Source of the DNA: Actinoallomurus sp. | GTDB lineage: Bacteria > Actinomycetota > Actinomycetes > Streptosporangiales > Streptosporangiaceae | Reading direction: 5' to 3' | Assembly: GCA_025964625.1 (NCBI GenBank) | Contig: JAOPYL010000157.1 | Coordinates: forward strand, 1 to 49,238 | Length of the DNA: 49,238 bases | Shown here: one piece after another, positions 4,316 to 42,032 of the stretch | Numbering within the stretch: the stretch's first letter is position 1 | Layout of the letters: every line of letters begins with the position of its first letter | Made by a program: the position numbers and the translations under genes | Notes under the pieces: generated by a model | The model's database searches: none | The model's input: the letters and a program-made list of their open reading frames with translations, nothing else | Told to the model about the DNA's origin: nothing

Positions 4316-4327
4316 GGGCGGGGGCCG

Positions 4328-12052: not shown

Positions 12053-12724
12053 GTGGGACCGGATGATTCGTTCGGCAGCGCGGCACTGGTCATCAGCGAG
12101 TGCCAGCGGGGCCTGCTCGATCCCGCGACGTCCATGACACCCGGACTCGCGGCGCACGCGGCGGAGCAGGGCATCGTGGACCGCATCGCCGGGCTGGCCG
12201 CCGCCTTCCGCGCGGCCGGGCGGCCTGTCGTGCACTGCCTCATCGAGCATCGGCCCGACCTGGCCGGGGTGAAGCGCAACTCGCTGTTGGGTTCGCTGAC
12301 GCTGAAGCACCGTCGGCTGATCGCCGGGACCGAGGACGTACTGCCGCCGCCCGCGCTGACCCCGGCACCCGCCGACCATGTCAGCCGCCGGGCCGTCGGG
12401 CTCACCGCCTTCTACGGCACCGATCTCGACGCGACGCTCCGCCTCCGGTCGGTGGAGACGATCGTCCTGACCGGAGTGTCCACCGATGTGGCGATCCCGG
12501 GGTTCGCGCTCGAGGCCGTCAACCGGGGCTACTACGTACGCATACCCGCCGACTGCGTCGCCGGCACGTCGGCCGGTTCTCACCGGGCGATGATGAGCGG
12601 CCTCCTGCCGGTGGTCTCCCGGATCACCGACGCCGAGGCCGTACTGGCGGGCCTACGGACGACCATGCACTCACAGCGTGACGGTTCGGCCGGAGACGGC
12701 CGTCGAGACAAGGATGGACGATGA
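12053..12724 (+). CDS. Isochorismatase-fold protein lacking the catalytic cysteine
   Basis: A 223-residue protein of the cysteine hydrolase/isochorismatase fold: LVISECQRGLL at strand 1, RPVVHCLIEHRPD, LTAFYGTDLDATLR, LTGVSTDVAIPG and GYYVRIPADCVAG. In canonical enzymes the catalytic Asp sits in strand 1 and the nucleophilic Cys in the GVSTxxCV loop; here they are Glu 16 and Ala 147/Val 146, so ordinary cysteine hydrolysis is unlikely. It may be a binding protein or act by other chemistry. The start is uncertain: this GTG has GGGAGG three bases upstream, another GTG is at 12023. Its stop overlaps the DUF35 start (ATGA), tying it to the thiolase-fold gene that follows. Confidence 0.78.
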   Translation: MGPDDSFGSAALVISECQRGLLDPATSMTPGLAAHAAEQGIVDRIAGLAAAFRAAGRPVVHCLIEHRPDLAGVKRNSLLGSLTLKHRRLIAGTEDVLPPPALTPAPADHVSRRAVGLTAFYGTDLDATLRLRSVETIVLTGVSTDVAIPGFALEAVNRGYYVRIPADCVAGTSAGSHRAMMSGLLPVVSRITDAEAVLAGLRTTMHSQRDGSAGDGRRDKDGR

Positions 12725-17616: not shown

Positions 17617-19083
17617 TCAGCCGAGCGTGAACGGATCCCGGGTCTCCCCGGACAGCTCCACCCAGATCGCCTTGGTCTCGGTGTAGTCGCGGATGGCGTC
17701 GGCGCCGTTCTCCCGGCCGATCCCCGACAGGCCGAAGCCGCCGAAGGGGACCTGCGGGGCGACCGCACGATAGGCGTTCACCCACACGGTGCCCGCGCGC
17801 AGCCGCGCGGCGATCCGGTGTGCCCGGTGCACGTCCTTGGTCCACACCGAAGCCGCGAGTCCGTACGGGGTGCCGTTGGCGAGCGCGACGGCCTCATCCT
17901 CGGAGGAGAACGTGCTCACCGCCAGCACCGGCCCGAAGATCTCCTCGGTGATCGCGCGGGCGTCCTCGGGCAGGTTGGTGAGCACGGTGGGCCGGACGAA
18001 GTAGCCGCCCAGCTCCGGCACCGGCTCGCCGCCGCAGGCGATGGTCGCGCCCTGCTCCCGGGCGGCACCGAAGTGCTCCAGCACCTTGGCGAACTGACGG
18101 TCGTTGGCCAGCGGTCCCATCTCCGTCGCCTCGGCCCGGGGGTCACCGATGACGATCTGGTTGGCGCGCTCGACGACCTTGCCCACCAGCCGCTCGGCCA
18201 CCGACTCGTGCACCAGCAAGCGCGAACCCGCCAGGCAGGTCTGACCGGCGGCCGCGAACACCCCGGCGACCAGGCCGTTGGCCGCCGCGTCGAGGTCGGC
18301 GTCGGCGAAGACGACCTGCGCGGACTTGCCGCCCAGCTCCAGGGTCACCCTGGTGACGTTGTCGGCCGCGGCGTGGGCCACCGCCTTACCGGTCTCGGTG
18401 GAGCCGGTGAACGCGACCTTGTCCACCCCGGGATGCGCGGACAGCGCCTTCCCGGTCTGCGGGCCCCACCCGGTGATCACGTTCACGACGCCCGGCGGGA
18501 AGCCCGCCTCCGCGATGAGTCCGGCCAGGGCGACCGTTGACGCGGGCGTGTAGTCGCTCGGCTTGACGACCACCGTGCAGCCGGCGGCGAGGGCGGGGGC
18601 TAGCTTCCAGGTCAGCAGCAGGAGCGGGGAGTTCCAGGGAGTGATCGCGGCCACGACGCCCACCGGCTCGTGCCGGGTGTAGACGAGGTAGTTGGGCTTA
18701 CCGGTGGGGATCACCTCGCCCTGGAGCTTGTCGGCCAGCCCGGCGAAGTAGGTGTACCAGGCGGGCAGACCTTTGGCCTGGCCCGCCATCTCCCGCAGTA
18801 GCTTGCCGCCGTCGCGTACCTCCAGCTCGGCCAGCCGGTCGGCGTCCCTGGCGATCAGCCCGGCCAGCGTCCGGAGCAGCTCGCCGCGGTCCGTCGCGGT
18901 GAGCGCGCCCCACGGGCCCGACAGCGCGGCGCGGGCGGCGGACACCGCCCTGTCCACGTCTTCGGCCGTGCCGTCCGCGACCTGCGCCCATGGCTCACCG
19001 GTGTAGGGGTCGAGCGACTCATAGGTCCGCGCCGAGTCCGACGGCACGAACTTGCCGTCGATGTAGAGACTGAACTGCTCCAT
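17617..19083 (-). CDS. NAD(P)-dependent aldehyde dehydrogenase
   Basis: A 488-residue aldehyde dehydrogenase of usual length. It has PWNSP (Asn 151), the cofactor block FTGSTETGKAVAHAA, general base Glu 249 in LELGGKSAQ, nucleophile Cys 283 in AAGQTCLAGSR, and EIFGPVLAVSTF. It oxidises an aldehyde to the acid, in keeping with a pathway producing aldehydes from alcohol oxidation or aldol cleavage. GGAGGAG precedes the ATG. It is the last gene of the ten-gene minus-strand operon that begins with the 86-residue protein. Confidence 0.92.
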   Translation of the reverse strand: MEQFSLYIDGKFVPSDSARTYESLDPYTGEPWAQVADGTAEDVDRAVSAARAALSGPWGALTATDRGELLRTLAGLIARDADRLAELEVRDGGKLLREMAGQAKGLPAWYTYFAGLADKLQGEVIPTGKPNYLVYTRHEPVGVVAAITPWNSPLLLLTWKLAPALAAGCTVVVKPSDYTPASTVALAGLIAEAGFPPGVVNVITGWGPQTGKALSAHPGVDKVAFTGSTETGKAVAHAAADNVTRVTLELGGKSAQVVFADADLDAAANGLVAGVFAAAGQTCLAGSRLLVHESVAERLVGKVVERANQIVIGDPRAEATEMGPLANDRQFAKVLEHFGAAREQGATIACGGEPVPELGGYFVRPTVLTNLPEDARAITEEIFGPVLAVSTFSSEDEAVALANGTPYGLAASVWTKDVHRAHRIAARLRAGTVWVNAYRAVAPQVPFGGFGLSGIGRENGADAIRDYTETKAIWVELSGETRDPFTLG

Positions 19084-19106: not shown

Positions 19107-20258
19107 CTAGTCGAGCCCGCCGCGCTTGACCAACTGGGCCGCGATGACGTTGCGCTGGATCTCGTTGGTGCCCTCACCGACGATCATCAGCGGTGCGTCG
19201 CGGAAGTACCGCTCGACGTCGAACTCCGTCGAATAGCCGTAACCGCCGTGGACCCGGACCGCGTTGAGTGCGATCTCCATCCCGACCTCTGAGGCGAACA
19301 GCTTGGCCATGCCCGCCTCCATGTCGCAGCGTTGCCCCGCGTCGTACTGGCGGGCCGCGTACAGGGTCAGCTGGCGCGCCGCGGTCAGCTTGGTGGCCAT
19401 GTCGGCCAGGTAGTTGCCGACCGACTGGTGTTTCCAGATGGGCCGCCCGAAGCTTTCGCGCTCCTGCGCGTAGCGCAACGCGTCGTCCAGGGCGGCCTTG
19501 CCGACCCCGAGCGCGCGGGAGGCCACCTGGATGCGGCCGATCTCCAGGCCCTTCATCATCTGTGCGAACCCGTGGCCCTCCTCGCCGCCGAGCAGCGAGA
19601 ACGCCGGGGCGCGATAGTCGGAGAAGGACAGTTCGCAGGACTCGACACCCTTGTACCCCAGCTTCGGCAGGTCCCGGGACACGTCGAGCCCAGGGCCGTG
19701 CTCCACGAGCAGGATCGACACGCCCCGGTGCCGGGGCGTCGCGGCCGGATCCGTCTTGCACAGCAACGCGATCAGCTGCGAGCGCCGGGCGTTGGTGATC
19801 CAGGTCTTCGCGCCGTTGACGACGTACTCCTCGCCGTCCCGGCGCGCGACGGTGGTGATGGCCTGCAGGTCGGAACCGCCGCCGGGCTCAGTCAGCGCCA
19901 TCGTCGCGCGGATCTCGCCGGTCGCCATCTTCGGCAGGTACCGGTCCTTCTGCTCCTGCGTCCCGAACGCCAGCAGCAGCTTGGCCACCACGGTGTGGCC
20001 GCCCATGGCCCCGGCCAGGCTCATCCAGCCGCGGGCGAGCTGCTCGGTGACCTGGACGTAGCACGGCGTCGACACCGGCGCCTCACCCCACGGCTCGGGA
20101 ATCGCCAGGCCGTAGATCCCGAGTCCCTTCATCTGCTCGATGAGCTTGTCCGGGTACTGGTTCGCGTGCTCCAGCTCGCGTACGACCGGCCGGACCTCAC
20201 GGTCGACGAAGTCACGGACGATGTCGACGACGGCCTGCTCTTCGACGCTCAGTTCCAC
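19107..20258 (-). CDS. Acyl-CoA dehydrogenase, full-length canonical
   Basis: A 383-residue acyl-CoA dehydrogenase with all standard elements: ATMALTEPGGGSDLQAI (flavin and substrate), KTWITNARRSQ, RESFGRPIWKHQSV, VHGGYGYSTEFDVERYFRDA, and the catalytic base Glu 362 in IVGEGTNEIQR. Unlike the split pair in the neighbouring operon it should act as a homotetramer. It makes a 2,3-double bond in an acyl-CoA and passes electrons to ETF. The GTG has AAGGAG seven bases upstream. The gap to the preceding CoA-transferase gene is 19 bases, within the operon. Confidence 0.92.
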   Translation of the reverse strand: MELSVEEQAVVDIVRDFVDREVRPVVRELEHANQYPDKLIEQMKGLGIYGLAIPEPWGEAPVSTPCYVQVTEQLARGWMSLAGAMGGHTVVAKLLLAFGTQEQKDRYLPKMATGEIRATMALTEPGGGSDLQAITTVARRDGEEYVVNGAKTWITNARRSQLIALLCKTDPAATPRHRGVSILLVEHGPGLDVSRDLPKLGYKGVESCELSFSDYRAPAFSLLGGEEGHGFAQMMKGLEIGRIQVASRALGVGKAALDDALRYAQERESFGRPIWKHQSVGNYLADMATKLTAARQLTLYAARQYDAGQRCDMEAGMAKLFASEVGMEIALNAVRVHGGYGYSTEFDVERYFRDAPLMIVGEGTNEIQRNVIAAQLVKRGGLD

Positions 20259-20277
20259 GCCAGCTCCTTCAGATGAC

Positions 20278-21462
20278 TCAGATGACGCCGTCGGCCCGCA
20301 GCCGCGCGGTGTCGGTGTGGGTACGGCCGAGCTCGCGCAGGATCGCGTCCGTGTGCTCGCCGACCGCCGGGACGGCGTCCATTCGCGCGGTGACACCATC
20401 CAGTGTGACCGGCGGCAGGAGCGCGCGTACCGGACCACCAGGGGTTTCGACCTGGCGCCAGCGTTCGCGCCCGCGCAGCACCGGGTGGTCCAGGAACTGG
20501 GGCACCGTGCGCAGCCTCGCGTTGGCGATGCCGGCCGCGTCCAGCTGCTCCACGGCGGCGGCGGTCCCGAGCTCGGCGAGCCGGTCGGAGATGAGCCTGT
20601 TGAGCTCGGCCCTGTTGGCCACCCGCGCCGAGTTGCGCGCGAACCGCTCGTCCGTGGCCAGGGCCGGGTCCTTCAGCACGTCGGAACAGAACGTGCGCCA
20701 CTCCCGGTCGTTCTGCACCGCGACGATGACCACGTCCCCGTCGGCGGTCGGGTAGGGACCGTAGGGCGCGATGGTCGCGTGCTCGCCGCCGACGCGGCCC
20801 GGCGGGCGGCCGCCGTAGTCGGTGTAGTACGCGGGGGAGCCGAGCCACTCCGCGAGCGCCTCGAACAGCGAGATCTCCACGGCGGGCGCGATGCCCGTGT
20901 TCGCACGCTGGAGCAGCGAGGTGAGGATGCCTGAGAAGGCGTACATCCCGGCCGCGATGTCCGCGACCGAGATGCCCACCTTCACCATGTCCTCGGCCGT
21001 GCCGGTCACTGACATCAGGCCGGTCTCGGCCTGCACCAGCAGGTCGTACGCCTTGCGGTCGGCCCACGGCCCGCTCGACCCGAACCCGGACACGTCGCAG
21101 ACAACGAGCCGGGGCAGCCGTGGATTCAGCTCCGCCGCGCTCAAGCCCAGGCGGGCGGCCGCGCCGGGCGCGAGGTTCTGGACGAAGACGTCCGCGCCGG
21201 CCAGCAGCTCGTCGAGGATCGCCCGGCCGGCGGGGGACTTCAGGTTGAGCGTCAGCGACTCCTTGGACCGGTTGAGCCACACGAAGTAGCTCGACTGGCC
21301 GTGCACGGACTCGTCGTAGCCGCGCGCGAAATCCCCGGCGCCGGGCCGCTCCACCTTGATCACCCTGGCGCCCAGATCCGCGAGCTGGCGGGTGGCGAAC
21401 GGGGCCGCCACCGCCTGTTCGAGGCTGACCACCGTGATGCCGTCCAGGGGACGGGCGCTCAC
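20278..21462 (-). CDS. CaiB/BaiF family CoA-transferase
   Basis: A 394-residue class III CoA-transferase, only distantly similar to the other one in the window. Blocks: LDGITVVSLEQAVAAPFATRQLADLGARVIKVERP, NRSKESLTLNLKSPAGR, DRKAYDLLVQAETGLMSVTG with the catalytic Asp position, and VGISVADIAAGMYAFSGIL. The CDVSGFGSSGPWADR segment is typical of transferases rather than racemases. It could load CoA onto an acid from another CoA ester of the pathway without using ATP. The GTG overlaps the stop of the enoyl-CoA hydratase-like gene. Confidence 0.9.
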   Translation of the reverse strand: MSARPLDGITVVSLEQAVAAPFATRQLADLGARVIKVERPGAGDFARGYDESVHGQSSYFVWLNRSKESLTLNLKSPAGRAILDELLAGADVFVQNLAPGAAARLGLSAAELNPRLPRLVVCDVSGFGSSGPWADRKAYDLLVQAETGLMSVTGTAEDMVKVGISVADIAAGMYAFSGILTSLLQRANTGIAPAVEISLFEALAEWLGSPAYYTDYGGRPPGRVGGEHATIAPYGPYPTADGDVVIVAVQNDREWRTFCSDVLKDPALATDERFARNSARVANRAELNRLISDRLAELGTAAAVEQLDAAGIANARLRTVPQFLDHPVLRGRERWRQVETPGGPVRALLPPVTLDGVTARMDAVPAVGEHTDAILRELGRTHTDTARLRADGVI

Positions 21463-22238
21463 CGCAGGCGCCGCTCTCGACGCTCGCCGTGGGCCGTGGG
21501 CTCGCGGCCGTGGTTGCCGAGCTGGGCGTAGGACAGGCCGTGCCGCTGGGACAGCGACCACGGCTCGTCCAGCGCCTCCCACACGGCTCGGACGGTGCCC
21601 TGGACCGCCTCGGGCCGCCGGCTCGCGATCTCCTCGGCCAGTGCCTGCGCCGCCGGCCACAACTCCGCGCGCTCGACCACCTCGGTCACCAGGCCCAGCC
21701 GCAGCGCCGTCGCGGCCGTGATGCGTTCCTCGTTGCCGGTCAGCGCCCACCGCAGCACGTCGCCGAGCGGCACCCCGCGCCGCACCATCCCCACCGGTTC
21801 GAGCGCGGAGACCATGCCGCCGTTGGCGTGCGGGTCGAAGAAGGTGGCGTCGTCGGAGCAGATCACGATATCGGACTCATTGATGAAGTACATCGCCCCG
21901 CCCGCGGCCATGCCGTGGACGGCGGTGATCACCGGCTTCCACACCCGGTGCTGCTTGGGCCCGAGCAGCACACCGGGATCCTGCTGGTTCCAGATGTTCT
22001 GATCGCTCCACCACGGGCCCTCGGTCATGTCGATCCCGGTGCAGAAGGCCCGGTCGCCCGCGGCGCGCAACACGGCCACATGGATGTCGTCGTCGTCGCG
22101 GACCCGTTGCCAGATCGCGGCGATCTCGGTCGTCATCCTCTGGTTGAACGAGTTCAGCCGGTCGGGGCGGTTCAGCGTGATCGTGGCGACGTGCCCGGAC
22201 ACCTCGAACAGCACAGTCGACCCGTCGGACGCCGTCAT
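21459..22238 (-). CDS. Crotonase-fold protein lacking both catalytic glutamates
   Basis: A 259-residue enoyl-CoA hydratase-family protein. The first oxyanion block is AFCTGIDMTEGPWW and the second MAAGGAMYFINESDIVICS. Where hydratases have GGxxE, this has GGAMY, and the second glutamate region reads FFDPHANGGMVS, so neither catalytic Glu is in place. A Trp-rich insert (GPWWSDQNIWNQQD) replaces the usual flexible loop. It is therefore unlikely to be a simple hydratase; ring-handling or C-C cleaving crotonases also depart from the glutamate pair. Both ends overlap neighbours by four bases. Confidence 0.82.
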   Translation of the reverse strand: MTASDGSTVLFEVSGHVATITLNRPDRLNSFNQRMTTEIAAIWQRVRDDDDIHVAVLRAAGDRAFCTGIDMTEGPWWSDQNIWNQQDPGVLLGPKQHRVWKPVITAVHGMAAGGAMYFINESDIVICSDDATFFDPHANGGMVSALEPVGMVRRGVPLGDVLRWALTGNEERITAATALRLGLVTEVVERAELWPAAQALAEEIASRRPEAVQGTVRAVWEALDEPWSLSQRHGLSYAQLGNHGREPTAHGERRERRLR

Positions 22239-23827
22239 CGCTTCCCCTCGGCGGCGAACCGGCCGGTCAGCTCGCGCTTGACGATCTTGCCCATCGCGTT
22301 CCGGGGCAGGGTTGCCACGATCTCCAGCTGCTCCGGCAGCTTGCGGATGCTCAGGCCGTGGTCGCGCAGGTGCGCGCACAGACCCACCAGGTCCGGCGGT
22401 GCACCGGGGTCGGCCGGTACGACCACCGCGCACGCCCGCTCACCGGTCTCCGCATCGGGCAGCCCGACGACCGCGACCTCGGCGACGGCCGAATGGGTGA
22501 TCAAGAGTTCCTCCAGTTCGCGGGCGGAGATGTTCTCCATCTTGCGGATGATGACGTCCTTCATCCGTCCGGTCACCGTGACATAGCCCCGTTCATCGCG
22601 GAAGCCGAGATCGCCGGTGCGGAAATAGCCGTCGGCGTCGAACGCCTCGGCGTCCAGCGACGCGTCGACGTAGCCGAGCATCAGCTGCGGGCCGCGCACG
22701 CGCAGCTCACCGGTCTCGCCGTCCTCGGCGCGGGTGCCGTCGGGCCGCACCACGATCACCTCGCCGCCCTCGCCGGGGCAGCCCTCCGACGTCGCGTGGT
22801 CGGCGTCGGTGTCGTCCCAGCGGCCCCAGGTGATGTACGGGCATTCGGTCAGTCCGTAGCCGGACACGACGCCGACGCCGCCCAGCTCGCGCTTCACCTC
22901 ATAATGCAGGGATTCGGGGCGCGGCGACCCGCCGCAGAGCGTGACCCTGGCCCGGGGGAACAGGGGTGTTCCCGGCTGTGCGCGCTGCCGCGCCAGATAG
23001 GCCTTGATGAAGGGGAGACCCGAGCCGACGAGCGTGACGCCCTGCTCGGTCAGCAGGTCCACGGTGGTATGCGGGTCGAACACCGCACTGACGATCATGC
23101 TGCTGCCCGTACGCAGCGCGCTCAGCACGTGGGCGATTCCGCCGACGTGCGCCATCGGCAGCAGGGTCGCCGTGACGTCCTCGGGCCGCAGCGCAAGGTG
23201 CGCGCAGAACGTGCCGGACGCCGCGATCAGCCCGCGGTCGGTGTGCTTGGCGCCCTTGGCGTCCGAGGTCGTACCGGAGGTGTAGAAGATCCACCGCACC
23301 GCCGGCCCGCCGTCGGGTGCGTCCGCGGGTGGCTCCGGCGGCAGCGAGGCCGGGTCGCCCTCGGGTAGTCCGTCGTCCACGCGCAGCACTTCGAGCCCCG
23401 GTTGGGCGGCCGCCACCGTCCTGGCCATCGCCTCGTGGTCGACGCCCCGGAACATGCCGGGCACCAGGAGCCAGCGGGTGCCGGCCTGCCGGCAGATGAA
23501 GCCGAGCTCCCGCTCGCGCAGCATCATGACCAGCGGGTTCTGTGTCGCGCCCAGCCTCGCCAGCGCCAGCGCCAGCGTGATGGTCTCAATCCGGTTCGGT
23601 AGCTGCCAGGACACCACGTCGCCCGGCCGTACGCCGAGCGACAGTAGCCCGGCCGCCGCACGCTCCACCGCGTCGCGCATTTCGCCGAACGTCACCCGGC
23701 GCCGGTGCTCGTCGACGACGACCCTCGCGTCCGGCGTCGCCTCCGCGCGCGCGACCAGCAGCCGCCAGATCGTGCCGGCCTCGAGACCGCCGGCCGGCAC
23801 CGGTGCGGCCGTCCGCGTCCGCTGCAC
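22235..23827 (-). CDS. AMP-forming acyl/aryl-CoA ligase (IpfF-like position)
   Basis: A 530-residue ANL-superfamily ligase that adenylates a carboxylate and transfers it to CoA. P-loop WIFYTSGTTSDAKGAKH, motif SGYGLTECPYITWG, the FRTGDLGFRDERGYVTVTGRMKDVI hinge, and the C-terminal lysine in LPRNAMGKIVKREL are all present. Following the Rieske alpha and beta genes it corresponds to the ligase that activates aryl-acyl acids in the ipf set. The start is uncertain: this GTG lies just after the beta-subunit stop, while a TTG overlapping that stop is also in frame; neither has a good ribosome site, so translation is likely coupled. Confidence 0.9.
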   Translation of the reverse strand: MQRTRTAAPVPAGGLEAGTIWRLLVARAEATPDARVVVDEHRRRVTFGEMRDAVERAAAGLLSLGVRPGDVVSWQLPNRIETITLALALARLGATQNPLVMMLRERELGFICRQAGTRWLLVPGMFRGVDHEAMARTVAAAQPGLEVLRVDDGLPEGDPASLPPEPPADAPDGGPAVRWIFYTSGTTSDAKGAKHTDRGLIAASGTFCAHLALRPEDVTATLLPMAHVGGIAHVLSALRTGSSMIVSAVFDPHTTVDLLTEQGVTLVGSGLPFIKAYLARQRAQPGTPLFPRARVTLCGGSPRPESLHYEVKRELGGVGVVSGYGLTECPYITWGRWDDTDADHATSEGCPGEGGEVIVVRPDGTRAEDGETGELRVRGPQLMLGYVDASLDAEAFDADGYFRTGDLGFRDERGYVTVTGRMKDVIIRKMENISARELEELLITHSAVAEVAVVGLPDAETGERACAVVVPADPGAPPDLVGLCAHLRDHGLSIRKLPEQLEIVATLPRNAMGKIVKRELTGRFAAEGKR

Positions 23828-23832
23828 CGCGC

Positions 23833-24345
23833 TCAAAGGAGGAACGCCATCGTCGGCAGGGGGGCGCCCGCGTTGACCAGGTGCACGGTCTTGGCGACCA
23901 GTCTCGGCCCGCGCTCGGGATCGGTCGTGCGCACCCGGTGGATGACACGTCCCGCCCACACGCTCATGTCGTACCGGTACTCGTACAGGACGAAGTTCGA
24001 GCCGACGGTGACCGTATCGTCGTCGCGGTCGAGGAGTTCCAGGTTGGTCAGCAGCCTGCGCATCATCGACGGCGGGGTCTGGGAGTGCCGGGAGCCGGTG
24101 TTGAGCTGGGCGACGCGGCTGCGGATCCGGCGGCGGTTGTCGTACACGTAGGACAGGTCCGTGTTCGGGTCGGCGTCCGGGGACATCGGCACCCAGTAGA
24201 GGCCGTCGTCGTCCCAGAGCGCCTCCCACTCGGAATAGCGCGCCTCGTCGGCGAGCCGCGCCTCCAGGTACAGGAACGACTCGATCGCCGGGTCGATGCC
24301 CACGGCGCCGGTTCGTACGGACCCGGTCTCGGTGGCGCTGGTCAT
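23833..24345 (-). CDS. Ring-hydroxylating dioxygenase beta subunit
   Basis: A 170-residue small subunit of Rieske non-haem iron dioxygenases, with the cone-like fold. Typical blocks: IESFLYLEARLADEARYSEWEALWDDDGLYWVPM, DNRRRIRSRVAQLNTG, and SNFVLYEYRYDMSVWAGRVIHRVR. The subunit is structural and builds the alpha3-beta3 hexamer. Its ATG overlaps the alpha stop, ensuring balanced expression. It matches the ipfB position in the aryl-propionate system. Confidence 0.92.
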   Translation of the reverse strand: MTSATETGSVRTGAVGIDPAIESFLYLEARLADEARYSEWEALWDDDGLYWVPMSPDADPNTDLSYVYDNRRRIRSRVAQLNTGSRHSQTPPSMMRRLLTNLELLDRDDDTVTVGSNFVLYEYRYDMSVWAGRVIHRVRTTDPERGPRLVAKTVHLVNAGAPLPTMAFLL

Positions 24346-25643
24346 CGGTTCACTCCTTCCGGGGCGTCGAGGACCGAGGCCCAGTGCTGCCACAGTCCGC
24401 GCTGGGGCGTCTCGGAACTCTTGTCGTGATTGACCGTCCCGGAGTCCTCGTGCACGTCGGTGGTCGCGCCTCGGGCCAGCATGAGCCACTCCGGGCTGCG
24501 GGCGGCCAGGCCGAGCTGGTTGCGGGCCCCGATCTCCCCGTCGTCGGCGATGAGGAAGCCCGCCGGTCCCATGGCGCCCTCGGTGCGCCGCAGCATGCGG
24601 GTGTTCAGCTCGTCCATCCCCGGAATCAGTGCGGGTGTCGTGTAGGCGATGGTCTCGCCCGGCGCGAGCGGCTCGACGAACATGATGTTCATCTCGGCCA
24701 GGAACAGGTTGGGGAAGATCATTGTGTGCGGCGGGCCGACCACGAACGCCTTGTGCGTGTCCTCGGGGCCGTGCGCCTCCTCCATGGCGGCGACGTAGCG
24801 CGGCAGCTTCTCCCGGGGTGCCCGGCCGAACCACACGAACTCCTCGTCCAGGCGGGAGTACTCGGGCAGGTAGTCGATCTCGGAGTGGCCGTCGCCGAGA
24901 TCCCGGACGTAGACCTCGACCTTGCTCGGCACGTGCGAGACCTTGGCCTCGCGCACCGCCTCATACACCGACTGGTGGGTGAACAACGCGTGGTAGCCGT
25001 CCACGTTGTTCTCGATCACCATCTTCCAGTTGCTGAAGTGGCGGTGCTTCATCCAGCCGGCCCGCAGGTCCAGCCCACCGGTCGGGGAAAGTGCCAGCAG
25101 CCGGTCGATCGCGCCGGTGGCCCGGCCCAGGTGCTCGCGCAGCGAGATGCCGTCCGGCGACAGCGAGGCGAACACGAAGCCCCCGTACTCGTCCACCCTG
25201 GGCGCCGGGGCGAGGCCCAGCTCGCTCCTCCTGGCGAGGAACTCCTCGGAGTAGCCGGTACGCATGGGCACCGCGACCAGCGCTCCGTCGTTCTTGAACG
25301 TCCACCCGTGATACGGACAGCGGAAGGTCGTGCTGTTGCCGCGCTCGGCGTTGCACAGCCGGTTGCCCCGGTGCGCGCAGCGGTTCGCCAGCACGTGCAC
25401 CTTGCCGTCGCGGCCACGGCTGACGATCATCGGTTCGCGCCCGATCCGCCGCGTGACATAGTCGCCCGGCTCGGGCACCTCGCTCTCGTGGGCGACGAAG
25501 ACCCAGCCCTGCCGGTAGATGCGCTCCAGTTCGAGCTCGAACACCTCTGGGTCGGTGTAGACCGACCCGTGCACCCGGTCGGGCCGGACCAGGTCACGCA
25601 CCCCGTTTCGCCTCGGCGCGGGCCGCGTCTCGACTTCGGTCAT
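24342..25643 (-). CDS. Rieske ring-hydroxylating dioxygenase alpha subunit
   Basis: A 433-residue catalytic subunit. The Rieske [2Fe-2S] site is Cys 89-x-His 91 and Cys 109-x2-His 112; the mononuclear iron site is ENNVDGYHALFTHQS, with His 218 and His 223 and the bridging Asp 215. It should place two hydroxyls on an aromatic ring using electrons from the reductase encoded at 35.7 kb. Its position between a thiolase/DUF35 pair and a CoA ligase suggests that the substrate is an aryl-acyl-CoA attacked at the ring carbon bearing the side chain, as for IpfAB. Its ATG overlaps the DUF35 stop. Confidence 0.95.
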   Translation of the reverse strand: MTEVETRPAPRRNGVRDLVRPDRVHGSVYTDPEVFELELERIYRQGWVFVAHESEVPEPGDYVTRRIGREPMIVSRGRDGKVHVLANRCAHRGNRLCNAERGNSTTFRCPYHGWTFKNDGALVAVPMRTGYSEEFLARRSELGLAPAPRVDEYGGFVFASLSPDGISLREHLGRATGAIDRLLALSPTGGLDLRAGWMKHRHFSNWKMVIENNVDGYHALFTHQSVYEAVREAKVSHVPSKVEVYVRDLGDGHSEIDYLPEYSRLDEEFVWFGRAPREKLPRYVAAMEEAHGPEDTHKAFVVGPPHTMIFPNLFLAEMNIMFVEPLAPGETIAYTTPALIPGMDELNTRMLRRTEGAMGPAGFLIADDGEIGARNQLGLAARSPEWLMLARGATTDVHEDSGTVNHDKSSETPQRGLWQHWASVLDAPEGVNR

Positions 25644-26113
25644 CAGGGGTCCTCCCTTTCACCATGTGGAGTTGTGCGTGCTGTGAAGGCCGGAACGGCC
25701 ACGTCGCCGAGACGGCGGAAGCCGATCGAGACGGCGTCGCCGATCGCGGGCGGGTGGGGGAGCGGCTCCAGCGACGTCAGCACCAGGCGGTGGCCGCCGG
25801 CCATCTCGACGTCGGCGACCGGGTACGGAGCGCGTGCGCGGACCAGGCCGCGTTCCAGCCGGTGCACCATGGTCACGGAGTGCACGGTCCCGCGCGGGTC
25901 CACCGGCCGCCAGTCGGCGCCGGTGGTGGCGCACCCGTCGCACACCCTCTGTTCGAGTTCGAGGGCCAGGCCGCACGCCGGGCAGAAGGGGAGCACGAGC
26001 AGGCCGTCGGCGGCGCCGGAGTACAACGGCGCCAGCGGATCGCCGTCGACGGCCGGGGCCAGCTCCGCGCCGAGCAACCAGTCCTCCGCCACCACGCCCA
26101 CAGTCTCCGTCAT
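25643..26113 (-). CDS. DUF35 OB-fold protein, IpfE-like position
   Basis: A 156-residue DUF35 protein with zinc ribbon cysteines 44, 47, 58 and 61, and an OB fold from GTVHSVTMVHRLERG to VSIGFRRLGDVAVPAF. Expected to bind the CoA ester and partner the thiolase-fold protein whose stop it overlaps by four bases. It corresponds to ipfE. An N-terminal segment of about 35 residues before the zinc ribbon is longer than needed and may contact the partner. Confidence 0.9.
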   Translation of the reverse strand: MTETVGVVAEDWLLGAELAPAVDGDPLAPLYSGAADGLLVLPFCPACGLALELEQRVCDGCATTGADWRPVDPRGTVHSVTMVHRLERGLVRARAPYPVADVEMAGGHRLVLTSLEPLPHPPAIGDAVSIGFRRLGDVAVPAFTARTTPHGEREDP

Positions 26114-27264
26114 GCCGCCTCCAGCACCAGGCAGGCGTGGTGGTCGATCCGGCCGCCGATCCCGCCGACGAGCGCGGTACGCGCGCCCGTCACCTGCCGG
26201 TCGCCGCCATCGCCGCGCAGCTGGACGATCGCCTCCACCAGCGGTGTCATGCCCTGAAGGTAGAACCCGGACAGCTGGCCGCCCCCGGTGTTGGTGGGCA
26301 GTGCCCCACCGGGCGCCAGGGCGCCGGAACGGGCCAGCGGCCCGGCCTGCCCCGGCCCGCAGAAGCCGTACTCCTCCAGCAGGCACAGCGTCACGATCGT
26401 GAACGGGTCGTACAGCTCCAGCACGTCCAGGTCGCCACGGCTCAGTCCGGCCTCGGCGAGCGCGTCCTCGACGGCGGCGCGACCGCCGCCGAACCATGAT
26501 TCGTCTCCGGCGCGCCGCCGCCGTACCGGGTGTGCCCGGCCGCTCCCGATGACCCGCACGGGCGTGTGCCGGGCGGCGGGGAGATCCGGGCTGAGGACCA
26601 CGGCGGCCGCGCCGTTGACCGGGCGCGCGCAGTCCAGGCGGCGCAGCGGCGTGGACACCATCGGGCTGGCGCGGTAGGTGTCGGCGTCCAGGGGCGTGCG
26701 CTGCACCGCGTCGGGGTTGCCCTGGGCCCAGGCGCGGGCAGCGAGGGCCACCGACCCAAGGTCGTCCGGCGAACCGCCGGTGACGGCGAGCCAGCGGGCG
26801 GCGAGCAGGGCATAGGTCGGCACCGAACCGAGCACGCCGGAGGCGCGTTCGAGCCCGCGTACGCCGGAGTTGCCCCCGCTGCGGGCGTAGGTGGAGCCGG
26901 CGCCGCCCGCGGCCCGCAGCGGCGCGTCCGCGAAGACGCACGCCACGGTCCTGGCCTCGCCGGTACGGATCGCGAGCTGGGCGCGCCGCACCATCGCGAC
27001 CGTCGTCGCGCCCTTGATCTCCACGTGCTCCAGCAGCCGGAGGTCGCCGAGCCCGGCCTGCGCGGCGAGCGTAACGCCGACCCGGTCCGGGCGGACCCCC
27101 TGGCTCGACCCGACGAGCAGGCCGTCCAGCTCCGTGTGCGCGAGCCCGGCGTCGTCGAGGGCGGCGCGCAGCGCGCGCGCGGCCAGCTCGGCCGCGGAGC
27201 CACCCGGCTTGGTAGACATGGGTGTCAGACCGAGGCCGATGATCGCGGACTGCCGGGCGCTCAT
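26110..27264 (-). CDS. Thiolase-fold (SCP-x-like) protein, IpfD-like position
   Basis: A 384-residue thiolase-fold protein. The nucleophile loop reads HVEIKGATTVAMV, with no Cys, and the C-terminal block is PTNTGGGQLSGFYLQGMTP, without the GHP motif. ELYDPFTIVTLCLLEEYGFC keeps the Tyr of the YDxF block seen in the steroid aldolase Ltp2. With the coupled DUF35 protein it is best read as a retro-aldolase that would release the side chain as an acyl-CoA from a ring-1,2-diol and leave a catechol. The ATG overlaps the stop of the small leading gene. Confidence 0.88.
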   Translation of the reverse strand: MSARQSAIIGLGLTPMSTKPGGSAAELAARALRAALDDAGLAHTELDGLLVGSSQGVRPDRVGVTLAAQAGLGDLRLLEHVEIKGATTVAMVRRAQLAIRTGEARTVACVFADAPLRAAGGAGSTYARSGGNSGVRGLERASGVLGSVPTYALLAARWLAVTGGSPDDLGSVALAARAWAQGNPDAVQRTPLDADTYRASPMVSTPLRRLDCARPVNGAAAVVLSPDLPAARHTPVRVIGSGRAHPVRRRRAGDESWFGGGRAAVEDALAEAGLSRGDLDVLELYDPFTIVTLCLLEEYGFCGPGQAGPLARSGALAPGGALPTNTGGGQLSGFYLQGMTPLVEAIVQLRGDGGDRQVTGARTALVGGIGGRIDHHACLVLEAA

Positions 27265-27521
27265 CGGCCGCGCTCGTCCCGGTAGTGCCCGACCCGGAGC
27301 CAGTCGAGGCGGTCCTCGGGAGTGGCGAGGCAGAGGCTCGCCAGCTCGAGGGGGGACAGCAGGATCTCCGCGCCGGTCTCCAGATCCTGGACCAGCAGGC
27401 GAGGGCCGTTTCCGCGCTCATCGAGCGTGATCCGCACGGAGGCGAACTCGTTGCGCAACTCCGTCAGCGGACGGCGTCCGGGGTCGGTGTTTCCCGTACC
27501 GAGCCCGTCGCTCCCCGTCAC
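27261..27521 (-). CDS. Small protein leading the dioxygenase operon, function unknown
   Basis: An 86-residue protein with a polar, Gly-rich N-terminus and a compact C-terminal half: ASVRITLDERGNGPRLLVQDLETGAEILLSPLELASLCLATPEDRLDWLR. The pattern suggests a two- or three-stranded sheet and a helix; there are no metal ligands apart from single residues and no membrane segment. The GTG start has no clear ribosome site, so the mRNA may be leaderless or start close by. It overlaps the thiolase-fold start by four bases, and a gene that opens a nine-gene coupled chain is unlikely to be accidental. I do not recognise the family. Confidence 0.7.
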   Translation of the reverse strand: MTGSDGLGTGNTDPGRRPLTELRNEFASVRITLDERGNGPRLLVQDLETGAEILLSPLELASLCLATPEDRLDWLRVGHYRDERGR

Positions 27522-27609: not shown

Positions 27610-28167
27610 ATGTCCAGTCCCCCTCCCGCCCAGCTCACGCACGTCGGGCTCTATGTCGAAGATATGGACAGGATGGCCGATTTCTACCAGCGGCTCCTGG
27701 GCATGGTCATCACCGACCAGGGTGAGTTCCTCGGTAAGCGGCTCACCTTCCTCAGCCGCGACGCGGACGAGCATCACCAGCTCGTGCTGGTCACCGGCCG
27801 GAAGGTCCCGGACGGGGTGCAGCTGCTGTCACAGGTGTCGTTCCGGTTGGAGGACGAGGACCTCAAAGGCCTGCGCTGGTTCCGCACGACGGCTCTCGAG
27901 CTCGGTGCGACGGGCATGGAGGGCCGCAACCACGGCAACAGCTGGAGCATCTACTTCGAGGACCCCGAGGGCAACCGGCTGGAGCTGTACGCCCCGACGC
28001 GGTGGTACGTCAGCCAGCCGTGGCGGGTCGCGCTCGACCTCGACCGGACCGATGAGGAGATCCGCGAAGAGACCCTCAAGCTGATCGAGGAGTCCGCCAC
28101 CTGGCAGCCGGTCGAGACCTGGAAGACGGAGCTGGCCACGAGGCTGGGCACGGAGGCTGAAGCGTGA
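27610..28167 (+). CDS. One-domain extradiol dioxygenase (VOC fold)
   Basis: A 185-residue vicinal-oxygen-chelate protein whose pattern matches the short, single-module type I extradiol dioxygenases. Putative Fe ligands are His 11 in LTHVGLYV, His 55/56 in DEHHQLVLV, and Glu 125 in NRLELYAP; NHGNSWSIYFEDPEGN ahead of the Glu is the extradiol signature and supplies His 108. It should cleave a catechol next to the hydroxyls (meta-cleavage). The genes that follow encode the next three steps, which supports the call over glyoxalase or other VOC functions. GAAGGG precedes this ATG; an upstream ATG at 27586 is weaker. Confidence 0.85.
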   Translation: MSSPPPAQLTHVGLYVEDMDRMADFYQRLLGMVITDQGEFLGKRLTFLSRDADEHHQLVLVTGRKVPDGVQLLSQVSFRLEDEDLKGLRWFRTTALELGATGMEGRNHGNSWSIYFEDPEGNRLELYAPTRWYVSQPWRVALDLDRTDEEIREETLKLIEESATWQPVETWKTELATRLGTEAEA

Positions 28168-29036
28168 GTGAGCAGGAGCCCGATTACCGCAGCATCTGGA
28201 CGTGGCTGCGGGAGGTGGAATTCCGTCAGGGGTGGTGTGACGCGGGCGGCATCAGGACCCGGTTCGCCGAGGCGGGCGATCCCGACCTGCCCGGTCTCCT
28301 CCTCCTGCACGGCACCGGCGGCCACTGGGAGACCTTCGCGCCGAACCTGGGGGCACTGAGCGAGCACTTCCACTGCGTCGCGGTCGACATGGTCGGCAAC
28401 GGCTTTTCGGCCAAGCCCGACTACGACTACGAGATCGCGGTCTACGTACGGCAGATGCTGGCGGTCCTCGACCACTTCGGCATGACGCGTTCCTCGGTCG
28501 TCGGCATGTCGCTGGGGGCCTGGGTCGCCGCCCGGCTGGCGCTGGACGCGCCGGAGCGGGTCGAACGGGTCATCCTGATGTCGCCGGCCGGGCTCGTCGC
28601 CACCGCGTCCAACATGGCGCGCATCCGCGCCGAGCGGACGAAGGCGGTCGAGGACCCGAACTGGCAGTCCATCAAGGCGATGTTCGATCACCTGATCGCC
28701 GAGGAGCGCAACCGGATCCCGGACGTCATCGCGCTGCGCCAGGCGATCTACCGGCTGCCGGACACCCGCGAGTCCATCGACCACCTCCTGATCCTGCAGG
28801 ACCCCGAGGCGCGGGAACGCAACCTGTTGTCCGAGGAGCAGTGGCGCTCGATCACGGCCCCGACCCTGGTCGTCGCGTCCGGCAAGGACTACAGCGAGTA
28901 CGAGAACACCGCCCGCCGCGTCGCCGCGCTGCTGCCCGACTCCCAGCTGCTGGAGATGCCGAACGTCAAGCACTGGCCCCATTTCGAGGACCCCGAAGTG
29001 TTCAACCCGGCCGCGCTGAAGTTCCTGCTGGGGTGA
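28164..29036 (+). CDS. Alpha/beta hydrolase, probable meta-cleavage product C-C hydrolase
   Basis: A 290-residue alpha/beta hydrolase. [17 protein letters not shown] forms the oxyanion loop, Ser 116 in GMSLG is the nucleophile, SGKDYSEY provides the acid, and His 270 in [13 protein letters not shown] completes the triad. The MhpC/BphD group hydrolyses the ring-fission product to 2-hydroxypenta-2,4-dienoate and a carboxylic acid. Its place between the extradiol dioxygenase and the dienoate hydratase fits that role. GTG overlaps the previous stop. Confidence 0.9.
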
Positions 29037-29040
29037 CAGG

Positions 29041-29862
29041 GTGACTGCCACATTCGATGACGCCCTGATCGAGGACATGGCGCGCCGGCTGGACGAGGCC
29101 GAGCGCACCAGGACCCCGATCCGCCAGCTCTCCCTGCAGTACCCGGAGATGACCATCGAGGACGCCTACGCGGTCCAGCGCGCCTGGGTGGCCGACAAGC
29201 TGCGGAAAGGCCGGGTCCTTCGGGGCCGCAAGATCGGCCTCACCTCCCAGGTGATGCAGAGAGCGGTCTCGATCAACGAGCCGGACTACGGCGCGCTGTT
29301 CGACGACATGTTCTTCGAGGACGGAGCGACCGTGCCGTACGGCCGCTTCATCCATCCCCGCGTCGAGGTGGAGCTGGCGTTCGTGCTCGGCCGGCCGCTG
29401 AAGGGCCCCGGCATCACGGTGTTCGATGTGCTGAGCGCGGCGGAGTACGTCACGCCGGCGTTGGAGATCCTGGACGCGCGGGTGCAGATGAGCGACCCGG
29501 AGACCGGGCACCTGCGCACGATCGTCGACACGATCGCGGACAACGCGGCCGATGCCGGGATCGTCGTGGGCGGCCGGGCGGTGCGGCCGATGGACGTGGA
29601 TCTGCGCTGGGTCGCCGCCGTGCTGCACCGCAACGGCGTCATCGAGGAGTCGGGCGTCGCCGCGGCCGTGCTCAACCACCCGGCCAACGGGGTCGCGTGG
29701 CTCGCCAACCGGCTCGCGCCGTACGGCGACGGGCTCGAGCCGGGCCAGGTCGTCCTCGCGGGCTCGTTCACCCGGCCGGTGCACGCTGCGGACGGTGACG
29801 TGTTCCTCGCCGACTTCGGGCCGCTCGGCACGCTGAGCGTCCGCTTCGAGGCGGCGCCGTGA
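29041..29862 (+). CDS. 2-hydroxypenta-2,4-dienoate (2-keto-4-pentenoate) hydratase
   Basis: A 273-residue member of the FAH-like hydratase family (MhpD/BphH/HsaE). [34 protein letters not shown] is the family hallmark, and [16 protein letters not shown] carries the metal-binding Glu residues. It adds water to the dienoate to give 4-hydroxy-2-oxovalerate (or a longer homologue if the dienoate is alkylated). Starts four bases after the hydrolase stop and overlaps the aldolase start. Confidence 0.93.
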
Positions 29863-30626
29863 CGCGCGCGGACCGCTGGGCCGACCGGCTGCGCGGCGAG
29901 ATCCCGCTGATCGGGATGTGGGTGGTCTCGGGCAGCGCGTACGCGGCCGAGATCTGTGCCGGCGGCGGCCTGGACTGCCTGATCATCGACTGCGAGCACG
30001 CCCCGAACAACGTGCCGTCGCTGGTGCCGCAGCTCCAGGCCGTCGCGCCATACCCGGTCGAGACGATCGTCCGCCCCCCGACGGGCGACCCTGTGCTCAT
30101 CAAGCAGTTGCTCGACATCGGGGTGCGCAACCTCATGGTGCCGATGGTGGAGTCCGCCGAGCAGGCGCGAGCCCTCGTCGCCGCCATGCGCTACCCACCG
30201 GAGGGCATCCGGGGAGTCGGCGCCGCGTTCGCCAGGGCGTCCCGGTGGGGTCGCGTACCCGGCTACCTGGCCGGCGCCGCCGAGGAGCTCACGCTGACCG
30301 TGCAGGTGGAGTCGCGCTGGGGCCTGGACGAGGTCGGGGCCATCGCCTCGGTGGGGGGAGTCGACGCGGTCTTCTTCGGGCCGGCCGACCTCGCCGCGTC
30401 ATTCGGCCACCTCGGGGAGGCCGAACACCCGGAGGTGCTGTCCTCGATCGAGCAGGCCATCGGGACCGTCGCCGCGCTCGGCAAGGCGGCCTGCGTCAAC
30501 GCCTTCGCCGAACCCACTGCGCGCCGCTACCTGGCGGCGGGTGCGCGGCTCGCGGTGGTGGGCGCCGACGTCACCCTGCTCGCCCGGGGGAGCGAGGAAC
30601 TCGCGGCGCGCTACCGACAGCCCTGA
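29859..30626 (+). CDS. HpcH/HpaI family class II 2-oxo-4-hydroxy acid aldolase
   Basis: A 255-residue TIM-barrel aldolase of the HpcH/HpaI family. [32 protein letters not shown] contains the base-bearing Dx[10 protein letters not shown] the conserved Arg, [15 protein letters not shown] the metal Glu, and [12 protein letters not shown] the metal Asp. It should split 4-hydroxy-2-oxovalerate to pyruvate and an aldehyde. Most catechol pathways use the unrelated DmpG/MhpE aldolase paired with an acetaldehyde dehydrogenase, neither of which is in this window. Followed by a hairpin. Confidence 0.9.
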
Positions 30627-30659: not shown

Positions 30660-30694
30660 CCGACCCTTGCGTCATTCATGGAGAGGAGGCCGGA

Positions 30695-31876
30695 GTGGAT
30701 CTCGACTTCACGGCCGAGCAGATGGAGTTCCGCGACGAGGTGCGGACCTGGCTGACCGAGCACGCTCCCACCGAACCCCGGCCGCACCTGGACGCCGCCG
30801 CCATGCGCGAGTACGACCTGGCGTGGCAGCGCACCCAGTGGGATGGCGGCTGGGCCGGAATCGCCTGGCCCGAGCGGTACGGCGGCCGGGGCCTCACCCT
30901 CGTGCAGCAGCTCATCTGGTACGAGGAGTACGCCCGGGCGGGGCTGCCGAGCGTGGACGCCTGCTTCGTCGGCCTCAACCACGCGGGCCCGACGCTGATC
31001 ACCACCGCCACCGAGGAGCAGAAGAACTTCCACCTGCCCCGCATCCTGCGTGGGGAGGACGTGTGGTGCCAGGGTTTCTCCGAGCCCGGCGCCGGCTCCG
31101 ACCTCGCGGCGCTGAGCACCCGCGCCGAGCTGGACGGCGATGAGTTCGTCGTCACCGGCCAGAAGATATGGACCAGCTTCGCCATGATCGCGGACTACCA
31201 GGAACTCCTGGTGCGCACCGATCGGGACGGGGCGAAGAAGCACCACGGCATCACCTGGCTGATCTGCGACATGCGCTCGCCGGGTATCGAGGTGCGGCCC
31301 ATCGAGACCATCGAGGGCGGCGCCGAGTTCTGCGAGGTCTTCTACGACGAGGTCCGTATCCCGGTTGCCAACGTGGTCGGCGAGCGGGACAAGGGCTGGC
31401 GGGTGGCGATGTCCACGCTGTCGTTCGAGCGCGGCACCGCCTACACCGCCAGCCAGGTCCGGCTGTCGGACACCGTGGAGAAGCTCATCGACCTGGCGCG
31501 GGAGCGGACCGGCCCGGACGGCCGGCGGCCGGCCATCGCGGACGACGAGCTGTCCCGCCGGCTGGCGACCGCCCGCGCCGAGGTGGCCGCGCTGCGGGCG
31601 ATGACGTACGCCGGCATCTGCCGCAACCTGCGCTCGGACACGCCGGGCCCGGAGGGCTCGATGCTCAAGCTGTACTACGCCGAGATCGCCAAGCGCGTGG
31701 CGCGCCTGGCGATGGACATCCTGGGCGCCGACGGCCTGCGGGCGACCTCCCGCTGGGACCGGCCCTTCGGCTGGTCCGGCAACTACCTGTACTCCTTCTC
31801 CACCTCGATCGGCGGGGGCACGTCGGAGATCCAGCGCAACATCATCGGCGACCGGGTCCTCGGACTCCCGCGCTGA
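30695..31876 (+). CDS. Acyl-CoA dehydrogenase, alpha-type subunit
   Basis: A 393-residue acyl-CoA dehydrogenase. WCQGFSEPGAGSDLAALSTRAELDGDEFVVTGQKIWTS supplies the flavin signature. The C-terminal block is FSTSIGGGTSEIQRNIIGDRVLGLPR, where the usual catalytic EGT is GGT, so the base must sit elsewhere, perhaps the Glu in STLSFERGTAY. This pattern and the shorter partner gene downstream indicate an alpha2-beta2 enzyme of the FadE28/FadE29 kind, used for short branched side chains on rings. The GTG has a strong GGAGAGGAGG ribosome site. Confidence 0.9.
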   Translation: MDLDFTAEQMEFRDEVRTWLTEHAPTEPRPHLDAAAMREYDLAWQRTQWDGGWAGIAWPERYGGRGLTLVQQLIWYEEYARAGLPSVDACFVGLNHAGPTLITTATEEQKNFHLPRILRGEDVWCQGFSEPGAGSDLAALSTRAELDGDEFVVTGQKIWTSFAMIADYQELLVRTDRDGAKKHHGITWLICDMRSPGIEVRPIETIEGGAEFCEVFYDEVRIPVANVVGERDKGWRVAMSTLSFERGTAYTASQVRLSDTVEKLIDLARERTGPDGRRPAIADDELSRRLATARAEVAALRAMTYAGICRNLRSDTPGPEGSMLKLYYAEIAKRVARLAMDILGADGLRATSRWDRPFGWSGNYLYSFSTSIGGGTSEIQRNIIGDRVLGLPR

Positions 31877-34152: not shown

Positions 34153-34154
34153 CC

Positions 34155-40867: not shown

Positions 40868-40882
40868 TCAGGAGGACCATTC

Positions 40883-42004: not shown

Positions 42005-42032
42005 ACCGGCCACGACGAGGAGATCTCGCGAG

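Follow-up and report, generated by a model that had tools for sequence, protein, structure and literature searches.

The window we analysed is one contig of a 5.84-Mb draft genome of Actinoallomurus sp. (JAOPYL010000157.1 of assembly GCA_025964625.1, 49,238 nucleotides). On its minus strand, at 22235-27521, lies an operon with genes for a thiolase-fold protein, a DUF35 protein, the alpha and beta subunits of a Rieske dioxygenase and a CoA ligase. This operon probably encodes an upper pathway that, like the ipf genes for ibuprofen, strips an aromatic ring of its acyl side chain. From sequence comparison the notion that its enzymes work like Ipf is well supported, although our confidence is slightly reduced by the generality of one active-site glycine and by the missing extradiol enzyme, both discussed below. 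We see the system as an actinobacterial variant in its own right, with another ligase arrangement, a lower pathway resembling that for tetralin and an undescribed Rieske-linked small protein. In the Ipf pathway, as outlined in the excerpted text of PMC9195938, a ligase, an oxygenase and a retro-aldolase yield propionyl-CoA and isobutylcatechol, and an ibuprofen-negative mutant carries an insertion in ipfD. Overall, the sequence-only reading that had proposed the likeness is partly supported.

The Pfam scan recovered all five named genes, and together with the coordinates it confirms that they are consecutive and mostly overlapping. The set is larger than the five genes first proposed: a small open reading frame (ORF) of 86 amino acids (27261-27521, minus), absent from the earlier gene list, joins the operon, whose right end at 27521 is the GTG start of this ORF, and a divergent lower-pathway operon on the opposite strand belongs to the system as well. 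The small ORF overlaps by four bases the gene for the thiolase-fold protein (26110-27264, 384 amino acids, Thiolase_C_1), the retro-aldolase candidate. The genes for the DUF35/OB-fold partner (25643-26113, 156 amino acids, OB_ChsH2_C), Rieske alpha (24342-25643, Rieske and Ring_hydroxyl_A), Rieske beta (23833-24345, 170 amino acids, Ring_hydroxyl_B) and the AMP-forming ligase lig1 (22235 to about 23806, AMP-binding and AMP-binding_C, start codon not settled) follow on the same strand. Overlaps of 1-4 bases occur at four of the five junctions from small ORF to ligase (small ORF/thiolase, thiolase/DUF35, DUF35/alpha and alpha/beta); there is none between beta and ligase if the latter starts near 23806. 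The lig1 gene also overlaps the next one, for an enoyl-CoA hydratase/isomerase-fold protein (21459-22238, minus) that is conserved with the operon.

In the thiolase phylogeny the 25 Rieske-linked sequences (14 actinobacterial and 11 from proteobacterial loci and plasmids), IpfD included, form a single clade with support of 100/99. The Rieske label requires one change on this tree; Ltp2, Sal and the relatives without Rieske genes lie outside the clade, and the window protein does not branch with TcLtp2. A relative counts as without Rieske if tblastn found no match to the window alpha or beta in the flanking sequence fetched, and for some loci this sequence is short. The position of the thiolase within the IpfD clade supports the proposed likeness to ipfABDEF, but the ligase counted among those five is only 28% identical to IpfF. 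A search of PDB sequences returned Ltp2 (6ok1) first, followed by 4u4e and 9myr (the Sal aldolase), and the sequence score for Ltp2 is 129 bits versus 57 bits for PhlC. The catalytic residues of TcLtp2, Tyr294 and Tyr344 according to the excerpted text of PMC12329534, align with Y285 (in YDPF) and Y335 (in GFYLQGM) of the window protein after the chain numbering was checked, and both tyrosines are invariant across 40 aligned relatives. The residue two past the first tyrosine is proline in the actinobacterial Rieske-linked sequences and alanine or serine in the other Rieske-linked ones (one of them YEAF); YDCY is found in 12/12 sequences without Rieske genes from the same large clade, versus YD[P/A/S]F or YEAF in those linked to Rieske genes. 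At the nucleophile column the window protein has Gly85 and at position 287 a proline, and the cysteine pair of SCP2-type thiolases (the nucleophile and the HDCF-type motif) is absent. The protein has five cysteines elsewhere (109, 212, 294, 302 and 378), so that the earlier description of a Cys-less thiolase holds for the catalytic positions only. The DUF35 partner shows the zinc-ribbon pattern C-x2-C-x10-C-x2-C, and the canonical C4 pattern of DUF35 in Ltp2-ChsH2 is described in the excerpted PMC12329534.

Several observations on the same protein weigh against retro-aldol cleavage. Glycine occupies the nucleophile column in 56 of 59 aligned sequences, all Rieske-linked ones among them, and cysteine is found only in three paralogues from the same genome (L098, L100 and L101); some paralogues from this genome also have tyrosine at position 335. 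Since the glycine and Tyr335 both occur more widely, neither alone is diagnostic. Judged from the alignment, loss of the nucleophilic cysteine is a trait of a wider subfamily, and the missing cysteine that the earlier reading tied to retro-aldol chemistry does not, taken alone, indicate that reaction. An Ltp2-type active site is retained as far as the tyrosine pair is concerned, but the motif is YDPF and lacks the oxyanion histidine of Ltp2 YDHF, whose replacement cost Ltp2 about 14-fold (PMC12329534, in excerpt). The AlphaFold model of the thiolase (pLDDT 85.5, pTM 0.89) has Sal-Shy as its first Foldseek match (E 2.6e-32) and Ltp2-ChsH2 as its sixth (E 2.1e-30). The VIA Z-scores overlap: 46.9 for TbSLP, 46.5 for Ltp2, 46.4 for an archaeal acetoacetyl-CoA thiolase and 45.6 for Sal, then 44.3-41.1 for SCP2 thiolases and 34.8 or lower for canonical thiolases. 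For the predicted structure, such scores do not separate aldolases from thiolases of the SCP2 type.

Two further occurrences of related proteins were observed. Chloroflexi and Dehalococcoidia carry a sister thiolase-fold protein, with YDCY and YMWGM in the aligned sequences (L064-L069, L071-L073, L075, L078, L080, L081, L084-L086, L089 and L093); no Rieske genes were found in the fetched flanks of these loci, and all but L080 have a DUF35 match. The source genome itself encodes an Ltp2-like aldolase (L105, C137:22613-22969) with YDHF and GEAYIHGM that groups with TcLtp2. Its presence suggests that steroid side-chain cleavage is probably separate from the operon.

The operon order is largely conserved across 54 related loci (50 genome loci and 4 plasmid loci). 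The genome loci come from a thiolase-alignment scan of 84,980 species genomes, limited to stretches matching one of two peptide patterns; among the best 80 of 318 relatives, 50 are actinobacterial by title with 66-90% identity, and the relatives that follow drop to at most 49%. The top named matches are metagenome-assembled genomes, from Actinoallomurus (90%), Actinomycetes (83%) and Streptosporangiaceae (82%). On plasmids, tblastn with alpha returned pIBU218 at 41.7% and six closer records (60-80% identity), one from Streptomyces NBC_00564 and five from Rhodococcus; the divergent core is common to four of the six, the four that were opened, with the Streptomyces plasmid lacking a ligase after beta. 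The series small ORF, thiolase, DUF35, alpha, beta is complete, in the same order and on a single strand in 47 of the 54 loci, and in the remaining seven the absent gene falls at a contig end. Because the order is kept in so many of the related loci, it is not due to chance. Counted gene by gene, all 50 genome loci have DUF35, 49 have alpha, 48 the small ORF, 45 beta and 41 the enoyl-CoA hydratase-fold gene. Within the family of the source organism the gene set is patchy, since an orthologue of at least 82% identity occurs in 4 of 200 sampled genomes (the source genome counted) and the next matches reach at most 49%.

The alpha subunit carries the Rieske ligands (residues 89-112, CxH...CxxH) and the catalytic iron ligands (motif NNVDGYHALFTH, from residue 212). 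Its identity is 42% with IpfA and 29% with XylX. Its best NCBIfam model is benA (TIGR03229), at 195.6 bits versus a cut-off of 780.95, and it falls far short of every listed model. One might read the pair as a benzoate- or toluate-type dioxygenase that acts on free aromatic acids, with the nearby CoA genes being unrelated; the alpha/beta type is the same and benA is after all the best model. However, neither the score nor the low XylX identity agrees with this, the approximately unbiased (AU) test rejects a clade of the window group with BenA/XylX (p-AU 0.0012), and the linkage to thiolase and DUF35 is conserved. Rejected by score and AU test, this reading is largely refuted and very unlikely; the sequence-only reading had named such a placement as its own refutation check, which it passes. 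Less favorable is that the clade of window and Ipf alpha sequences, supported at 88/82 with outgroups, falls to 45/9 without five long sequences; we therefore do not claim that alpha groups with IpfA. As for a second Rieske group, from CoA-pathway clusters, a joint clade with it is not rejected (p 0.112).

The thiolase and DUF35 pair invites two other explanations. If it were a thiolytic thiolase of side-chain beta-oxidation, then the dioxygenase would give an ordinary dihydrodiol. The overlapping Z-scores, the many beta-oxidation genes around the operon and the genes for short-chain dehydrogenases/reductases elsewhere in the window, which are possible dihydrodiol dehydrogenases, are in line with this; but there is no cysteine at the nucleophile column or at 287, where the three paralogues named above do retain the former, the Ltp2 tyrosine pair is invariant, and the protein shares a single clade with IpfD. 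Thiolysis is thus disfavored on residues and not on fold, and we consider it improbable. A Friedel-Crafts-type acyltransferase or acylase like PhlABC would likewise combine these two protein folds, and PhlC and its relatives are among the fold and sequence matches. The sequence score of PhlC is, however, less than half that of Ltp2, and no HMGS/KSIII-like partner was found among the operon proteins scanned, which leaves this explanation with hardly any probability.

For the Ipf-like pathway that we prefer, the following steps can be envisaged. A ligase would form an aryl-acyl-CoA, and the alpha/beta oxygenase, judged from its family and motifs, would dihydroxylate the ring carbon that bears the side chain together with its neighbor, to give a tertiary beta-hydroxyacyl-CoA; electrons would come from a reductase such as the FAD/NAD/[2Fe-2S] protein encoded at 35697-36779 (minus), a candidate electron donor. 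The thiolase-fold/DUF35 pair, given its clade and residues, would then perform retro-aldol cleavage, with Tyr285 accepting the proton of the ring hydroxyl and Tyr335 protonating the acyl-CoA enolate, and the ring ketone would tautomerise to a catechol. Gene content points more weakly to a fourth step, in which the divergent operon would open the catechol and feed a dicarboxylic fragment to a hydratase and an aldolase of HpaH/HpaI type, to an aldehyde dehydrogenase and to an acyl-CoA dehydrogenase of two subunits, as in the tetralin pathway. This content may indicate an aromatic ring with a fused alicycle or a carboxyalkyl chain; an aromatic terpenoid would be one example.

The operon is one half of a divergent locus, whose other half runs on the plus strand from a VOC-fold gene to a second ligase gene. 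The VOC-fold protein (27610-28167, 185 amino acids) is a candidate ring-cleavage dioxygenase and is followed by an alpha/beta hydrolase (28164-29036), a candidate C-C bond hydrolase. Next are an HpaH-type hydratase (29041-29862; TIGR02312, 445 bits, above the cut-off of 351.5) and an HpaI-type aldolase (29859-30626; TIGR02311, 315.5 bits, below the cut-off of 368.8). Two acyl-CoA dehydrogenases come after these, one (30668-31876, start not settled) with the PimC large subunit as its best model (259 bits versus a cut-off of 624), the other (31985-33013) with IpdE2 and then the PimD small subunit, both below their cut-offs. A second thiolase-fold protein (33010-34152), which lies above the cut-off for the PRK06158 subfamily and is 78% identical to one of Rhodococcus DK17, precedes the CoA ligase lig2 (34089-35678), whose ORF start overlaps the preceding gene and whose homology begins at about 34179. 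Downstream of the operon itself, on the minus strand, are a family III CoA-transferase (20278-21456, start not settled; nearest models of succinate-glutarate and formyl-CoA type), an acyl-CoA dehydrogenase (19107-20261, start not settled) and an aldehyde dehydrogenase (17617-19083). The last is 74% identical to its counterpart in the Rhodococcus DK17 locus, and its top models are of betaine-aldehyde, phenylacetaldehyde and HpaE type, each below cut-off.

According to the excerpted text of a review on tetralin (PMC6563040), the enzymes of its lower pathway are a C-C hydrolase, a hydratase and an aldolase akin to those for homoprotocatechuate, as well as an aldehyde dehydrogenase, a CoA-transferase of the CaiB/BaiF family and a pimeloyl-CoA dehydrogenase with a large and a small subunit, and they are required because hydrolysis within the fused ring gives one dicarboxylate. 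The window holds all of these enzyme kinds. Hydrolase, HpaH and HpaI genes occur together in 43 of the 44 loci (among the 54) whose sequence reaches 6 kb or more beyond the thiolase on the upstream side, the sole exception being L046, which lacks HpaI, and the trio lies on the strand opposite to the operon in 45 of 45 loci carrying all three. From this tetralin-like enzyme set we infer, with lower confidence, a substrate whose catechol is fused to an alicyclic ring or bears a carboxyalkyl chain; an aromatic terpenoid is a guess. Some findings count against this reconstruction. The PimC, IpdE2, PimD and HpaI assignments lie below curated cut-offs, which makes the fused-ring inference indirect. 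The CoA-transferase is found at 55% identity or more in just 7 of the 50 genome loci, a reductase orthologue is within reach in just 2, and the VOC gene is present in just 8, and in one of the four plasmid loci. Across 11 VOC sequences H11, the histidine pair of EHH and the C-terminal glutamate are conserved, but the canonical second histidine ligand is replaced by glutamine. Genome-wide, the extradiol models TIGR03211 and TIGR03213 gave only weak matches, none above cut-off; other extradiol families were not searched. The ring-cleavage enzyme is the weak link, and we are unsure of it.

An alternative explanation is that the Ipf-like ligation, oxygenation and cleavage act on a monocyclic arylacetate or 2-arylpropionate, and that the HpaH- and HpaI-like genes serve fragments of homoprotocatechuate type or others. 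Ipf itself acts on monocyclic acids, the hydratase exceeds the HpaH cut-off, and the HpaE model gives the aldehyde dehydrogenase a score of 488.8, short of its cut-off of 638. However, among the window genes scanned there is no HpaD above cut-off and no HpaF, and the hydratase and aldolase are accompanied, as in the tetralin set, by a C-C hydrolase, a dehydrogenase pair of the PimC and IpdE2/PimD kind and a CoA-transferase. We regard a monocyclic substrate as a considerable possibility that we would still not expect to hold. More doubtful is the boldest version, in which the operon is a natural and widespread home of ibuprofen-type chemistry that handles alicycle-fused aromatics such as aromatic terpenoids, opens both rings in the tetralin manner and uses the small protein as an extra oxygenase component.

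The likeness to ipfABDEF of Rhizorhabdus wittichii MPO218 (pIBU218) and Sphingomonas Ibu-2 extends to beta (44% identity), the thiolase-fold protein (43%) and DUF35 (30-34%) as well as to a clustered CoA ligase and to the active-site blocks Y-D-x-F and FYLQGM, which are shared with IpfD. The gene order differs, however, and the adjacent window ligase is not orthologous. IpfE (pIBU218 12130-12528) lacks the zinc-ribbon cysteines present in the window DUF35 and in four plasmid orthologues, and tblastn detected no small ORF in ipf, though a diverged one could escape this search. Furthermore, the window lower pathway is of the hydrolase/HpaH/HpaI kind, whereas IpfL and IpfM use a semialdehyde dehydrogenase (PMC9195938 and PMC10004696, both in excerpt), and the window type, unlike ipf, is found in 50 actinobacterial species loci among the best 80 relatives of the scan. 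The excerpted texts of PMC9956071 and PMC10004696 name ipf-like genes for proteobacteria only. In the latter, a Rieske protein of Patulibacter is among the proteins possibly involved in ibuprofen degradation and Nocardioides and Rhodococcus are listed as ibuprofen degraders or transformers; no ipf operon is named there for any of the three. In the open-licence literature, no paper listed by our searches deals with an actinobacterial ipf-like operon, or with this cluster in connection with dehydroabietic acid or HpaH. As a separate observation, three Comamonadaceae/Burkholderiales loci (L070, L074 and L077) have, besides a Rieske-linked aldolase, a hydratase that matches the window HpaH at 35-66%, L074 additionally having VOC, hydrolase, HpaI and aldehyde dehydrogenase genes; they are a possible bridge between the Ipf and the actinobacterial layouts.

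With Ltp2-ChsH2 (PDB 6OK1) and Sal-Shy (PDB 9MYR) the window pair shares the fold, the DUF35 partner and the expected tertiary beta-hydroxyacyl-CoA substrate, and with Ltp2 the tyrosine pair. Unlike these systems, it has YDPF in place of YDHF or YDCY, falls outside both branches and has a DUF35 protein that is not fused to a MaoC hydratase; its beta-hydroxyl would come from a dioxygenase and not from a hydratase. The likeness to the tetralin thn genes of Sphingopyxis granuli TFA (hydrolase, HpaH-like, HpaI-like, aldehyde dehydrogenase, CaiB/BaiF CoA-transferase and PimCD-like pair) was judged by enzyme kind only; the thn upper pathway is unrelated, and the CoA-transferase occurs in few of the related loci. 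The second Rieske group (M. avium plasmid pP7a, R. opacus PD630, Pseudonocardia and Variovorax) also lies among CoA-pathway genes, at 43-45% identity to the window alpha and 45-48% to beta, with a small protein after beta in L010-L012. Its thiolase matches reach at most 28%, several hydratases and dehydrogenases being present instead, and an AMP-binding ligase is annotated next to alpha in L011 and L012 only. If our reading is true, then the ibuprofen operon belongs, as one branch, to an older kind of enzyme that is spread through soil actinomycetes too, and detaching a side chain from a dearomatised ring by a retro-aldol reaction is a general solution, not an oddity of drug degradation. Some 15-20 defined genes would then be available for a search for the natural substrates.

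Neither Pfam nor NCBIfam has a family that matches the small protein. When 396 genomes of the phylum were searched with a profile, it turned up at 36 places in 26 genomes; 30 of these places, the window's own among them, were sampled as loci. In 25 of the 29 sampled sites besides the window, a match to the window alpha or beta lies within a stretch of about 3.2 kb. In two of the remaining four there is a match to Rieske alpha, at a distance of about 1.3 kb in L133 and, with another model, of about 3.5 kb in L118; for L112 and L123 no Rieske match is known. As a rough control from one genome, alpha or beta matches occur in 0 of 13 thiolase loci of similar size from the source genome, the operon's excluded (L094-L098 and L100-L107). 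A second genomic copy of the small protein (L166:8374-8607) overlaps the beta-like gene of a second Rieske system. The occurrence near Rieske genes elsewhere links the small protein to Rieske alpha/beta rather than to the aldolase, and from its distribution it is probably an oxygenase accessory protein. If this is true, it could be an unrecognised component of Rieske oxygenases. The protein is about 65-100 amino acids long, with the core NEFA-V---D--GN-PRLL-ED-E-G---LSPLELAS in the operon's own group; it occurs near Rieske alpha/beta genes of several kinds (L109-L137), and in a few genomes two matches lie within one open frame. The model predicts four strands and two helices (pLDDT 79.3, pTM 0.62) and has no clear fold match: the best Foldseek E is 1.3, and the best VIA matches are TolB (Z 4.9, rmsd 2.0, 41 residues aligned) and PUR-alpha (Z 4.8, rmsd 3.4-3.5, 72 aligned).

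The low identity of lig1 to IpfF also speaks against a full match with Ipf, and by sequence lig1 is not the counterpart of IpfF. Another ligase, 34% identical to IpfF, follows beta in the Rhodococcus loci, and with a threshold of 50% identity 45 of the 54 loci have this IpfF-like ligase next to the operon. In the source genome its 71% orthologue is on contig C370 and not in the window; its neighbors there are a CoA-transferase and an orthologue, at 75%, of a further dehydrogenase from the Rhodococcus locus. More loosely associated are genes at 3114-5245 (plus) for a flavin reductase, a SnoaL-like protein and an F420-type luciferase-fold oxidoreductase, whose relatives (58-67% identity) lie close to the operon in Rhodococcus DK17 or X5. 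Counted from 50% identity upwards, these three occur in 25, 1 and 19 of the 54 loci, respectively. The ligase on C370 and the distant position of these genes suggest that the pathway may be split between loci here.

Two candidate functions were rejected. An HsaA-type flavin monooxygenase was considered for the Rhodococcus acyl-CoA dehydrogenase beside the flavin reductase, but the models and PDB matches listed for it are mostly ordinary acyl-CoA dehydrogenases. For 20278-21456, an alpha-methylacyl-CoA racemase, which would have hinted at a 2-methyl-branched acyl-CoA, was dropped, since the listed models and PDB matches are CoA-transferases. Elsewhere in the window, an open frame of 937 amino acids (40868-43681) has no Pfam match and could encode a regulator or be the wrong frame. 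On Rhodococcus plasmids, lig1 and the enoyl-CoA hydratase-fold protein are fused into a protein of about 800 amino acids (L005:17456-19855, L006:17454-19853 and L007:15397-17817).

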